From: Bacteroidaceae bacterium | GTDB lineage: Bacteria > Bacteroidota > Bacteroidia > Bacteroidales > Bacteroidaceae | Assembly: GCA_017480685.1 (NCBI GenBank) | Contig: JAFUSD010000114.1 | Coordinates: 1 to 46,047, forward strand | DNA: 46,047 nt | Reading direction: 5' to 3' | Part shown: positions 12,408 to 16,807 of the stretch, piece by piece | How the letters are laid out: each line of letters opens with the position of its first letter | How positions within the stretch are numbered: position 1 is the first letter of the stretch | The notes under the pieces: generated by a model | What the model was told of the DNA's origin: nothing | What the model saw: the letters and a program-made list of their open reading frames with translations, nothing else | Databases searched by the model: none | Program-made: the position numbers and the translations under genes

Positions 12408-13220
12408 ATGCACCATGTGCATCAAACCATGTCCATACCTATGACCAATCCGCAAGACCTGGAGATACAATCATTGCTCGGCCACCTGCCTCCAATCACG
12501 CTGGAGCAGATGGAGTCGATAAAACTGATGAACCGGCTCGACACGAAGTATGTAGCCACCAAACGACAGCTGATGGAACTGCTGAAGATGGTGGAGGGTA
12601 AGTACTATGTGCAGGAGATTGGCGAGTACAGGATATGCCCCTACCGCACCACCTACTTCGACACACCCGAGCATCGCATGTATATGATGCACCACAACGG
12701 GTGGTCGCGAAGGGTGAAGGTGAGGGTGCGCACATACCTCTCGAGCGGCGACCTCACATTCCTCGAGGTGAAAAACAAGAACAACCACGGCCGCACGAAG
12801 AAGAAACGCATACAGGTGTCATCGCTCGAAACGGCACAACAGACCGAGGGCGCACCCGAGCTGGTCCAGAAGAAGGCACACATACCGTTCAGCTCGATGC
12901 ACCAAGTGGTGCAGAACTTGTTCGACCGCATCACGCTGGTCAACATGGCCAAGACCGAACGACTGACCATCGACTTCAACATCCGCTTCCACAACTTCGA
13001 GACGGGACTCGATGCCGACAGCGGTCAGCTTGTGGTCATCGAACTCAAGCGCGACGGAAATGTATACTCACCGATATGCTCCCTGTTGCGCGACCTCCAC
13101 ATACAGCCCACCGGCTTCAGCAAGTGCTGTATAGGCATGGTGTGGACCGACCCCAACCTGAAACACAACAACTTCAAGGCAAAGGTCATGAGGCTGGCGA
13201 AACTGAACAGCCTCGCCTGA
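12408..13220 (+). CDS. VTC-domain protein (polyphosphate polymerase-like)
   Basis: Up to 270 residues, matching the VTC domain family, the tunnel-fold triphosphate-type domain first known from the yeast vacuolar polyphosphate polymerase. The fold is visible as basic and acidic strands lining a tunnel: NRLDTKYVA near 42-50, YRTTYFDTPEHRMYM (about 79-93), RVKVRVRTY, TFLEVKNKNNHGRTKKKR, LTIDFNIRF and LVVIELKRDG. The bacterial function is not established; polyphosphate synthesis or binding of a phosphorylated ligand is inference. It begins a run of five same-strand genes and VTC proteins are commonly beside DUF4956 genes. ATGs at 12429 and 12441 are alternative starts; the conserved part begins after them. 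Confidence 0.85.
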   Translation: MHHVHQTMSIPMTNPQDLEIQSLLGHLPPITLEQMESIKLMNRLDTKYVATKRQLMELLKMVEGKYYVQEIGEYRICPYRTTYFDTPEHRMYMMHHNGWSRRVKVRVRTYLSSGDLTFLEVKNKNNHGRTKKKRIQVSSLETAQQTEGAPELVQKKAHIPFSSMHQVVQNLFDRITLVNMAKTERLTIDFNIRFHNFETGLDADSGQLVVIELKRDGNVYSPICSLLRDLHIQPTGFSKCCIGMVWTDPNLKHNNFKAKVMRLAKLNSLA

Positions 13221-13316
13221 CAGGGATGGGGGGAGGCTTCATCCGGATGTAAATGACAAAATAATTAAATAGTAGATAAATCGTAAATCGTAAATCGTCA
13301 AATAGTAAATAATACG

Positions 13317-14024
13317 ATGGAATCACTCAACGACTTCATGTCGCTCATCACTGGCGACACTTACCGCCTGCTCGACCTCGTGTTCAGGCTTTTGGTGAAC
13401 ACAGTGTTCACAGTCATCATCGCCCGCTTCTTCTACTTCCCCAAGAGCCGGCGCATCGACTTCTTCTTCACCTACGTGCTCGTGGGGTTCGGCATCTTCA
13501 TGCTCATACACCTCATGGGCGACGCCAAGCTGAAGACCGGTATCGCCATGGGACTCTTCGCCATCTTCTGCATCATGAGGTACAGAACCGAGTCGGTGCC
13601 TATCCGAGAGATGACATACCTCTTCCTCGTCATATCCCTCGCTGCCATCAACGGCCTTGCATGGATGGCCGACATAAGCGACAAGCATCCCGACTTCTTC
13701 GCACCCGAACTCACGGCCATGATTGAACTCACAGTCACCGACCTACTCTTCGTGCTCGTCATCTGGATAGCAGAAGGCGGAAAGTGGGTTACAAGCCTCA
13801 GTACAAAATACATAAAGTACGACAAGATAGACCTCATCACACCCGAACGCCGCGGCGACCTCATCGACGACCTGCGCAAGCGCACTGGCCTCAACATCAA
13901 GGATGTGGCCATAGGCTCTATCGACTTCCTCAAGGATATGGCCCTCATCAAGGTGTACTACACCGAGACCGACAATAAAGATAACGACGATTCACTGCAA
14001 AAAATGCCAAAACTGTATGACTAA
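13317..14024 (+). CDS. DUF4956 membrane protein
   Basis: 235 residues with about four hydrophobic helices in the first 150 (LVFRLLVNTVFTVIIARFFYF, FFFTYVLVGFGIFMLIHLM, IAMGLFAIFCIMRYRTE, MTYLFLVISLAAINGLAW) and a soluble C-terminal domain. The stretch GIAMGLFAIFCIMRYRTESVPIREMTYLF is typical of DUF4956. It overlaps the next gene by 8 bp and follows the VTC gene by 96 bp; VTC plus DUF4956 is a recurrent bacterial neighbourhood, suggesting a shared inner-membrane system. Biochemical role unknown. Confidence 0.87.
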   Translation: MESLNDFMSLITGDTYRLLDLVFRLLVNTVFTVIIARFFYFPKSRRIDFFFTYVLVGFGIFMLIHLMGDAKLKTGIAMGLFAIFCIMRYRTESVPIREMTYLFLVISLAAINGLAWMADISDKHPDFFAPELTAMIELTVTDLLFVLVIWIAEGGKWVTSLSTKYIKYDKIDLITPERRGDLIDDLRKRTGLNIKDVAIGSIDFLKDMALIKVYYTETDNKDNDDSLQKMPKLYD

Positions 14025-14949
14025 ACACATCATAGCCATAGCACTGCTGCTGTCACCAGCCACACTGCTGGCACAAGAAGACTTCGGGTATGACCTGAGC
14101 ATCGGCGGCGAAACAAAGATAACAAAGGGGTATAAGCTCGAGATGGAAGCCTCGATGCGTACACAGAACGACGCCCGCGACATAGACCGCTTTGTACTGG
14201 GAGCAGGAGTGTCACGCCGCTTGTGGCAAAACACAGACAAGACCCTGAGCGTGAAAGCAACCGTGGGTGCTGAGTTCCTCTGGACACATAGCTTGCAAGA
14301 AACCGAGATGAAATACTTCCACGAAGACGCCGACCTCGTGAAAGCCGGATACTTCCAGGTGGGCGACCTCCGCGGATGGAACGTCACCGACAGCTACTGG
14401 CGCAACCGCCTGCGCTTCAACGCATCGCTGTCGGCCAACTATGCGCCAGACAAACGGTGGACATTCACACTGAAAGAGACACTGCAGCACTCACACTACT
14501 TCACCGTCTCTGCTCATAGAATCAAGTATCGTCCCGACGAATACAACAGCCCGATCGACGATGAAGACAACATAGAATGGATTTACACACCATACCTCTA
14601 CGACGACGATACATACGCAGGCAATGACAACGTAGACGCCGACGGTAATGTAATAGGCCGAACACTGAACGAAGACATGGACCGCAAGTACCGTAAAGAC
14701 CGCACCATACTGCGCTCAAAGCTTACCGTGAGCTACGACATCAAGGGATTCCCGATAGATATCTTCGCTTCGGCAGACTATGGATGCGGACTCAACTACC
14801 ATGCCAACAAGTGGAGATTCAGCGGCGGCTACGACTACAAAATCAACAAAACCAACAAGCTGACCATGTTCTACAGATTCACAACACACGACGACGAAGA
14901 CGAGCCAAACGGACACCTCGTAGGGCTGGGATACAAGTTCGACTTCTGA
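14017..14949 (+). CDS. DUF2490 outer-membrane barrel protein
   Basis: 310 residues with a signal peptide (about 1-19, LLSPATLLAQ). The mature part is a series of amphipathic beta-strands with aromatic girdles (YWRNRLRFNASLSANY, RWTFTLKETLQHSHYF, KLTVSYDIKGFPIDIFAS) and a C-terminal Phe (YKFDF), as expected for an outer-membrane barrel. It matches the DUF2490 family. An acidic loop (about 170-220, rich in Asp/Glu, including DNVDADGNV) is an odd insertion that may be surface-exposed and bind calcium. Translational coupling with the DUF4956 gene is suggested by the 8-bp overlap. Confidence 0.85.
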   Translation: MTKHIIAIALLLSPATLLAQEDFGYDLSIGGETKITKGYKLEMEASMRTQNDARDIDRFVLGAGVSRRLWQNTDKTLSVKATVGAEFLWTHSLQETEMKYFHEDADLVKAGYFQVGDLRGWNVTDSYWRNRLRFNASLSANYAPDKRWTFTLKETLQHSHYFTVSAHRIKYRPDEYNSPIDDEDNIEWIYTPYLYDDDTYAGNDNVDADGNVIGRTLNEDMDRKYRKDRTILRSKLTVSYDIKGFPIDIFASADYGCGLNYHANKWRFSGGYDYKINKTNKLTMFYRFTTHDDEDEPNGHLVGLGYKFDF

Positions 14950-14990
14950 CATCACACAAATACAATAACTACATATAAAGATAAAGAAAC

Positions 14991-15398
14991 ATGAAAAAAC
15001 TAATTTCACTGATAGCAGCATTGTCGATAGCCGGAGCAATGCATGCCGACGACTACACACTCTACATCGTAGCCAACTCAACTACTAATTATACACTGGC
15101 CAAAGTGCAGAAAATCACTTTCGAAAACGGCAACGTAGTGGTGAACATGAAGGACGGCACCAAGCAGTCGACCGCCATTAGCGCCGTGAGCAGAATCTAT
15201 TTCGACATAGCAGCTGCATTTGAAGGCGAAGACGTGAACCAAGACGGAAGTGTGGACACACAAGACGTACTGGCTATATACGAGTTCATGCAGAACTATA
15301 CCGACGGTGCAACCATCGGAAATGAAGACGTGAACCAAGACGGAACGGTAGACACACAAGATGTCCTGCAAGTGTATGAATATATGCAAAACAACTGA
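14991..15398 (+). CDS. Small exported dockerin type I protein
   Basis: 135 residues: a signal peptide (about 1-19, ending MHA), a small beta domain (20-72, ending AVSRIYFD), then two dockerin-like repeats at about 81-101 and 113-133. Each repeat has a calcium loop DVNQDGxVDTQDV followed by a helix L.xYE(F/Y)MQN, as in type I dockerins. No cohesin is recognisable in the window. It sits between the DUF2490 barrel and the beta-helix gene, so it may dock onto a partner at the cell surface. The small N-terminal domain resembles the first 70 residues of the next protein (both end in an I..I.F motif before the functional domain). Confidence 0.88.
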   Translation: MKKLISLIAALSIAGAMHADDYTLYIVANSTTNYTLAKVQKITFENGNVVVNMKDGTKQSTAISAVSRIYFDIAAAFEGEDVNQDGSVDTQDVLAIYEFMQNYTDGATIGNEDVNQDGTVDTQDVLQVYEYMQNN

Positions 15399-15461
15399 CA
15401 AACCATCAGAACTAACGCATAAACACAAGACACATCCGACATCACATAACGATAATACGGC

Positions 15462-16760
15462 ATGAAAAGACTGTTTACCATCATAACCATTATGGCACTC
15501 GTGTGCTCTGAAAGCCTTCACGCTCAGAACGCATACGTCTGTCACGGCTATAGCTACGACACTTATGCTATAGCAGATATAGGCGATATGCAATTCTCGG
15601 CAAATAAAGACACTGTTGAAATCTGTGGCGAGACCTATGAGGTAGCAGACATTGACAGCATAACGTTCAGCGAACCGAAGTTCCCGACGATAAGCATCGT
15701 ATATAGCGGAAACTCGGCCACGGTGACTATTCCGTCATCGATCACGGGCGTGACGTGTACAAGCGGCACCAGCTCACATGTTGTGCTCACATCAACCAAC
15801 ACCACCACAGAATACCTCTACACAGCATCGGGCTCATCGACAAACGGCTCGCTCACCATCAACGGTTCCTATAAGATGTCGCTGATGCTGCCAGGACTGA
15901 CGCTGACATCGGGAACGGGCGATGCAATCGACATAGAGTGTGGCAAACGTATAGACATCATACTGAAGGAAGGAACCACCAATACCTTGGCCGACTATGC
16001 TGGCGGTGACCAAAAAGGGGCACTGTATGCCAAGGGACATATAGAGCTGAAAGGCGCCGGAACACTTAATGTCACTGGAAACTGTAAGCACGCAATATGT
16101 GCCAAGGAGTACTTCATAGTGAAAGCATCGGTGGGAACGGTGAACATACTTGCAGCCAAGAACGACGGCATACACTGCGGACGCGGCGAGAAAGGAAGTG
16201 AGCACAACTACTTCCAGATGAACGGCGGTACACTCAATATCAGCGGATGCGGAAGCGACTGCATCGACTCCGACGACTACGGATGCGTAAATATTAAAGG
16301 CGGTACGCTGAAGCTCGACGTCTCTGGCACCGATGCAGCCGGAATCCTTTGCGACAGCATCTACAAGCAGTCGGGCGGCGACATCACCTTCACTGCAGGC
16401 GGTCAGGAAAGCAAGGGAATCCATGCTTCCTACTCGGCCACATTCAAGGGTGGAACCGTGACAGGAACCGTGTCGGGTGCAGGAGCACGAGGCATACGTG
16501 GTAAGAAAGTGATAAAACTCACCGGAACCGTAAAGAACGGAGGAGCTCTCCTGTTCACCGGAACCGATGTAGAACTTACCGTAAGCGGCGAATACTACAG
16601 CACTACGCAATGTGTCGGCATACTGACAGATACCACATTGGAGCAAACCGGCGGCGACCTCACCATCACTGTCACCAACTCAAAGGCAGCCGACATTGTG
16701 GCGACAACCAGCGATACATGGACTGGCGGCACACGCAACGGTGTGGGCAAGGCACAATAA
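15462..16760 (+). CDS. Carbohydrate-binding beta-helix protein (Cthe_2159-type)
   Basis: 432 residues, signal peptide about 1-21 (CSESLHAQ). After a short N-terminal beta domain (EVADIDSITFSEP, about 60-72) it consists of right-handed beta-helix coils with repeating G.TLNI.G., GHIELKGAGTLNVTGN, NDGIHCG, SDCIDSDDYGCVNIKGGTL motifs. This pattern, including the KGALYAKGHIELKG and KHAICAKEYF turns, is that of the carbohydrate-binding family typified by Cthe_2159 (polysaccharide-binding beta-helix with calcium sites). It closes the five-gene set and is followed by a strong hairpin (16780-16807). Ligand cannot be told from sequence. Confidence 0.85.
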   Translation: MKRLFTIITIMALVCSESLHAQNAYVCHGYSYDTYAIADIGDMQFSANKDTVEICGETYEVADIDSITFSEPKFPTISIVYSGNSATVTIPSSITGVTCTSGTSSHVVLTSTNTTTEYLYTASGSSTNGSLTINGSYKMSLMLPGLTLTSGTGDAIDIECGKRIDIILKEGTTNTLADYAGGDQKGALYAKGHIELKGAGTLNVTGNCKHAICAKEYFIVKASVGTVNILAAKNDGIHCGRGEKGSEHNYFQMNGGTLNISGCGSDCIDSDDYGCVNIKGGTLKLDVSGTDAAGILCDSIYKQSGGDITFTAGGQESKGIHASYSATFKGGTVTGTVSGAGARGIRGKKVIKLTGTVKNGGALLFTGTDVELTVSGEYYSTTQCVGILTDTTLEQTGGDLTITVTNSKAADIVATTSDTWTGGTRNGVGKAQ

Positions 16761-16779
16761 TAATATAAAAATAACACAC

Positions 16780-16807
16780 GAGACCCTCTTACTCACAAGA
16801 GGGTCTC
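16780..16807 (+). terminator. 11-bp hairpin between the beta-helix gene and pyrH
   Basis: GAGACCCTCTT (16780-16790) pairs perfectly with AAGAGGGTCTC (16797-16807) around a 6-nt loop. The following TTAAA is a weak T-run. It ends only 16 bp before the pyrH start chosen here, so it may end the upstream operon, protect its 3' end, or cover pyrH initiation. Confidence 0.65.

Follow-up and report, generated by a model that had tools for sequence, protein, structure and literature searches.

Genes of the VTC and DUF4956 families have been reported together before. Gram-positive Pel clusters carry cotH, a poly-phosphate polymerase gene and a DUF4956 gene as accessory genes of unassigned role, and CotH was proposed to regulate Pel synthesis via protein phosphorylation (PMC7112168). 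The NELoc-2 locus of C. perfringens presents a VTC - 'tubulin/FtsZ' (membrane) - CotH - GT2 cluster (PMC2879425), and the eukaryotic VTC complex couples polyphosphate synthesis to translocation (PMC9911596). An earlier note on the DNA studied here had remarked that VTC and DUF4956 recur without an assigned role, which was in print already for the Pel clusters. In the literature searched we found no function for the VTC/DUF4956 run, and no account of the Bacteroidaceae five-gene operon described below or of a CotH-VTC association in Bacteroidota.

The locus lies at positions 12408-16760 of a 46,047-nucleotide stretch of DNA (the window) from a Bacteroidaceae bacterium, and is a variant of this known, unexplained VTC/DUF4956/CotH module. 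The CotH-PPP-DUF4956(-DUF4832) Pel set (PMC7112168) likewise has contiguous VTC/poly-phosphate-polymerase, DUF4956 and CotH genes; in place of CotH and the Pel genes, the window has genes for a DUF2490 protein, an ITF protein with a T9SS or dockerin tail, and a Cthe_2159 beta-helix. NELoc-2 (PMC2879425), whose layout of VTC, membrane protein, CotH and GT2 is that of a Romboutsia locus (L201), differs from the window in being Gram-positive and in having its VTC pair duplicated. The eukaryotic Vtc1/Vtc3/Vtc4 complex (PMC9911596) has TTM catalytic residues in common with the window protein and works with membrane helices, but in the window the membrane part is the putatively MgtC-like DUF4956 instead of the Vtc 3-TM domain, the SPX domain is absent and the parts reside on separate proteins. 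Our main reading, to which we assign a probability of roughly 0.42, is that a cytosolic polymerase works with an inner-membrane transporter to send polyphosphate outward, and that the beta-helix and the exported CotH kinases act there.

Gene organization of the locus

Five co-directional ORFs, all in the + strand, make up the locus: a cytosolic, triphosphate-tunnel VTC-domain protein resembling polyphosphate polymerases (12408-13220; PF09359 and a profile match to Vtc4, 3G3Q); a DUF4956 inner-membrane protein with a small C-terminal beta-alpha-beta-beta domain (13317-14024; PF16316, an AF2 model and a chain of hhalign comparisons); a predicted DUF2490 outer-membrane beta-barrel with signal peptide LLAQ|E (14017-14949; PF10677, AF2 and Foldseek); a small exported protein with an N-terminal ITF module and a dockerin-like pair (14991-15398; PF00404, alignment and the tails of relatives); and an exported beta-helix of the carbohydrate-binding Cthe_2159 type (15462-16760; PF14262 and a profile match to 4PEU/4PHB). 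The Pfam matches of all five exceeded the curated cut-offs, and together with the ORFs they bear out the families and the order given in the earlier note, as well as its claim that the run spans the cytoplasm (VTC), the inner membrane (DUF4956), the outer membrane (the DUF2490 barrel model) and exported proteins. Signal peptides were found in the last three proteins.

The 8-bp overlap and the final hairpin that had been pointed out are both present. The DUF2490 ATG is at 14017 and the DUF4956 stop at 14024, and the remaining intergenic gaps are 96, 41 and 63 bp. The flanking genes are hflX (-) and pyrH (+); between the operon and pyrH, the terminator-like hairpin at 16780-16807 (-19.5 kcal/mol, z -7.8 relative to shuffles) has a weak U-tract on the + strand and is listed as terminator-like on the - strand only. 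No promoter was resolved in the upstream sequence scanned, so we only infer that the run is co-transcribed. The Bacteroidetes -33/-7 promoter motif was not found in the operon leader, and an Rfam search gave no match.

Association with CotH and the envelope

We surveyed 198 Bacteroidota genomes, each at least 90% complete, and found VTC in 37, DUF4956 in 59 and CotH in 81. CotH was present in all 37 VTC genomes as compared with 44 of the 161 VTC-less ones (Fisher test, 8e-18); counted by genus, the association was 28/28 within 59/103 (p 4e-9). Both p values are inflated by relatedness, whereas physical linkage is independent of it: CotH was located 5 kb or less from VTC or DUF4956 in at least 11 of the 37 genomes, against an expectation of ~1% per genome. 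CotH, VTC, DUF4956 and DUF2490 genes formed a single run in five loci (L038, L098-L101); in L038 an LTD-CotH kinase with a T9SS sorting tail comes directly after DUF2490, and in L039 the CotH neighbour is convergent. Linked CotH genes encode signal peptides and some of them T9SS tails.

A DUF4956 profile scan of named genomes extended the comparison. The best 80 loci, 79 of them usable and not a random sample, included Bacteroidota, Ignavibacteria, Chloroflexi, Planctomycetes, Clostridia, Bacilli, Actinomycetes, Proteobacteria and others. Among these 79 best matches, VTC was 5 kb or less from DUF4956 in 70 loci (300 bp or less in 66), CotH in 44, HlyD-like proteins in 25 and Cthe_2159 beta-helices in 4; selected neighbour assignments were checked by Pfam. 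Two loci (L125 and L126) have DUF4956 copies with neither VTC nor CotH nearby, and one copy in L126 is two genes from a calcineurin-like phosphoesterase.

The genomic association of VTC/DUF4956 with CotH is near certain, and it suggests that a VTC-DUF4956-CotH envelope module is widespread, with the window operon as its Bacteroidaceae form. The partner set of the earlier note was right in that the run is conserved (see below) and incomplete in that it omitted the exported CotH kinase, the widely conserved partner of VTC/DUF4956. The window genome (Bacteroidales, 2.83 Mb, ~90% complete, judging from its proteins probably that of a Prevotella relative) has seven CotH genes, none adjoining the five-gene operon, and one of them (L089) encodes a C-terminal dockerin half resembling that of the operon. 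No CotH match was found in two VTC/DUF4956-bearing relatives (G042 and G050), nor in Bacteroides ihuae, which carries VTC/DUF4956 as well.

The DUF2490 protein (PF10677, 1.1e-9) gave a confident AF2 model of all-beta barrel strands (pLDDT 86.5, pTM 0.76) that matched outer-membrane barrels in Foldseek, and it is predicted to be an outer-membrane beta-barrel. Runs that lack DUF2490 in other lineages contain HlyD-like proteins instead, in some cases together with OEP, and this exchange suggests a substrate that crosses the envelope.

A doubtful alternative to polyphosphate delivery is that VTC/DUF4956 regulates or energizes the export of an exopolysaccharide, with CotH and the beta-helix as matrix proteins and polyphosphate, if it is made, as a cytosolic by-product or a signal. 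The HlyD/OEP partners do resemble exporters, and the Gram-positive clusters adjoin Pel synthesis genes (PMC7112168). In Butyrivibrio (L171, 9315-11995), VTC, DUF4956 and CotH are followed by MBOAT and AlgX-like genes, a hint of exopolysaccharide O-acylation, and the Romboutsia locus has a GT2 synthase. However, no glycosyltransferase was found in the window operon or in most of the Bacteroidota loci examined, and the VTC active site is fully kept.

The VTC enzyme and its membrane partner

The window VTC (PF09359, 5.8e-26, 91.9 bits for a cut-off of 23) lacks a signal peptide and has a pI of ~9.5. Translation more likely starts at the ATG at 12441, since the first 11 residues show no conservation. 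A phmmer search against the PDB returned spurious peptides only, and a profile was needed: one built from 23 VTCs matched the catalytic domain of yeast Vtc4 (3G3Q) with an E value of 3.7e-4. In this alignment Vtc4 K200, R264, R266, K281, R361, R373, E426 and K458 correspond to window K47, R106, R108, K122, R174, R185, E212 and K239. The R373 equivalent is kept in 136 of 137 bacterial VTCs and the other seven are invariant (in up to 137). We take K200, K281, R361 and R373 to be catalytic residues of Vtc4. For the remaining four there are published data: R264, R266 and E426 are residues mutated to inactivate yeast VTC (PMC9911596), and K458 is a catalytic residue (PMC4641920).

Hydrolases of the AtTTM3 type present four glutamates where Vtc4 carries basic residues (PMC4641920), and we mapped three of these positions in the window protein, two basic (R43, K214) and one acidic (D45). 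The acidic one, at -2 to K47 and equivalent to AtTTM3 Glu-4, is Asp or Glu in all 135 bacterial VTCs scored, so that another TTM chemistry is possible. It is a point in favour of an unlikely reading: instead of polymerizing, VTC would hydrolyse or sense triphosphate or polyphosphate, DUF4956 would carry ions or phosphate as other MgtC-family proteins do, and the set would deal with phosphate or divalent-cation stress at the envelope; the MgtC relationship of DUF4956 and the calcium-type surface domains (the EF-hand-like dockerin) would also fit it. The equivalents of Glu-2 and Glu-171, in contrast, are polymerase-like, Arg in 126 of 135 and Lys in 137 of 137 bacterial VTCs, respectively, and that of Lys458 is invariant. 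With the Vtc4 catalytic equivalents kept, the bacterial VTC is probably active and polymerase-like, yet not identical to Vtc4.

We also considered VTC as a substitute for polyphosphate kinase (PPK) and rejected it, as PPK is missing in 3 of 37 VTC genomes and in 16 of 161 others, with no anti-correlation. The window genome gave no PPK match (PF02503), unlike 179 of the 198 genomes of the phylum, and at ~90% completeness this may be a gap.

The DUF4956 protein (PF16316, 2.2e-48) was modelled by AF2 as five helices and the small C-terminal domain (pLDDT 77), and a fold search with the model found no significant match in the PDB. The profile of a second DUF4956 subfamily (A4), the one that occurs with CotH and HlyD, aligned by hhalign over almost its full length with an MgtC profile built from three sequences only (96.3%, score 65.8); the best of 12 block-shuffled controls scored 36.8, the reversed one 20.8, and unrelated membrane proteins were also well below. 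The window subfamily matched A4 at 99.5% and MgtC directly at 0.9%. DUF4956 thus appears to be a remote relative of MgtC, with the window subfamily linked through A4 only. An iron study lists the DUF4956-DUF2490 pair of B. theta (BT3498-99) jointly, with a value of 0.175 that is too weak for use.

Conservation of the operon and its surface proteins

DUF4956 was found in 35 of 61 relatives. All five genes, in the order VTC, DUF4956, DUF2490, small exported protein and beta-helix, were present in 12 of the 13 genus relatives with the locus; in the thirteenth the contig ends inside it. Six more genera of the family keep this order, mostly with different flanks, for a total of 19 five-gene loci including the window, and in one additional genus the fourth gene is missing from the run (L054). 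Other Bacteroidales families have VTC-DUF4956-DUF2490 or VTC-DUF4956. The five-gene set is a conserved operon, and the survey of relatives that the earlier note had called for found its neighbourhood retained. It is very improbable that five genes of unrelated functions stand together by chance or by synteny alone: pyrH is constant downstream and hflX upstream within the genus, and synteny could account for some of the conservation, but the order persists in the six other genera with their mostly different flanks and the core pair is adjacent across phyla. A small exported protein of ~135-140 aa was repeatedly seen 5' of VTC (L032, L035, L039 and L043), and no Pfam family exceeded the cut-off for the two tested (L032 and L035).

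The fourth protein matched Dockerin_1 (PF00404, 7.6e-10), in agreement with the dockerin of the earlier note, but the dockerin is not the conserved part of the protein. In the alignment of orthologues, the part kept is the N-terminal module. The dockerin-pair tail is confined to the subclade of the window; orthologues elsewhere in the family are devoid of it, and in other genera the tail is a T9SS sorting domain (TIGR04183 over the cut-off in L033, L041, L061 and L062). By this sequence comparison a dockerin has recently taken the place of a type IX sorting tail in the window subclade. A module shared by the N-termini of the fourth and fifth proteins was weak (18%) and was dropped.

Cohesin matches in the window genome were weak (best 1.6e-6). 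Weak cohesin-like proteins were present in 4 of 8 dockerin-tail genus relatives, window included, and in 0 of 5 without that tail (p 0.10), which is no more than suggestive. One cohesin-domain protein of the window genome (L207, 1802-2995; 1.1e-5) has a T9SS-like C-terminal motif and may dock the operon dockerin protein and the dockerin-tailed CotH (L089).

The beta-helix (PF14262, 1.9e-32) belongs by sequence to the solved Cthe_2159 family, its family profile matching 4PEU/4PHB with an E value of 7.4e-40. These matches place it in a carbohydrate-binding family, in agreement with the type proposed earlier, and it is a putative binder of polysaccharide; the window protein differs from Cthe_2159 itself in being an operon member. 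As a general partner of VTC/DUF4956, Cthe_2159 was discarded and judged clade-specific because only 7 of the 198 genomes carry it. A second Cthe_2159 gene of the window genome is seemingly split within GFGG repeats at two contig ends (L095/L096; C212 and C31), probably an assembly break.

Proposed mechanism and significance

Returning to outward delivery of polyphosphate, we take the observed association as the starting point and infer from it the polymer, its transport and its use as donor or scaffold. VTC, with its active-site residues kept, would build polyphosphate from the gamma-phosphates of ATP on the cytoplasmic side of the inner membrane, and the MgtC-like DUF4956 would pass the chain outward, much as transmembrane helices do in the eukaryotic VTC complex. 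The exit would be the DUF2490 barrel here and the HlyD/OEP-type proteins that replace it elsewhere. Once outside, the polyphosphate, or phosphate released from it, may support the exported CotH kinases and surface proteins associated with calcium or polysaccharide. The operon of this clade also has surface products of its own, the beta-helix and the small protein with a T9SS or dockerin tail, which may act there too. The coupling of a phosphate polymer to surface polysaccharide suggested by the earlier note is plausible. A complete polyphosphate secretion system, made and exported by VTC and DUF4956, carried across the outer membrane by DUF2490 or HlyD/OEP and serving CotH as phosphoryl donor or scaffold, is a tentative and rather doubtful form of the proposal. 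Several observations count against our explanation: the 44 VTC-less genomes with CotH, the VTC/DUF4956 genomes in which CotH was not found, the lack of a CotH gene beside the window operon, the acidic residue at -2 to K47 and the DUF4956 model that matched nothing in the PDB.

DUF4956 would gain a superfamily (MgtC) from this work, and DUF2490 gains a context. The presence of PPK in 34 of the 37 VTC genomes suggests that bacterial VTC proteins act in the envelope and not in storage. Exported CotH kinases are common and ATP is scarce outside the cell, and the near-strict link between CotH and VTC makes the question of the donor testable; secretion of polyphosphate, if true, would answer how extracellular kinases obtain high-energy phosphate.
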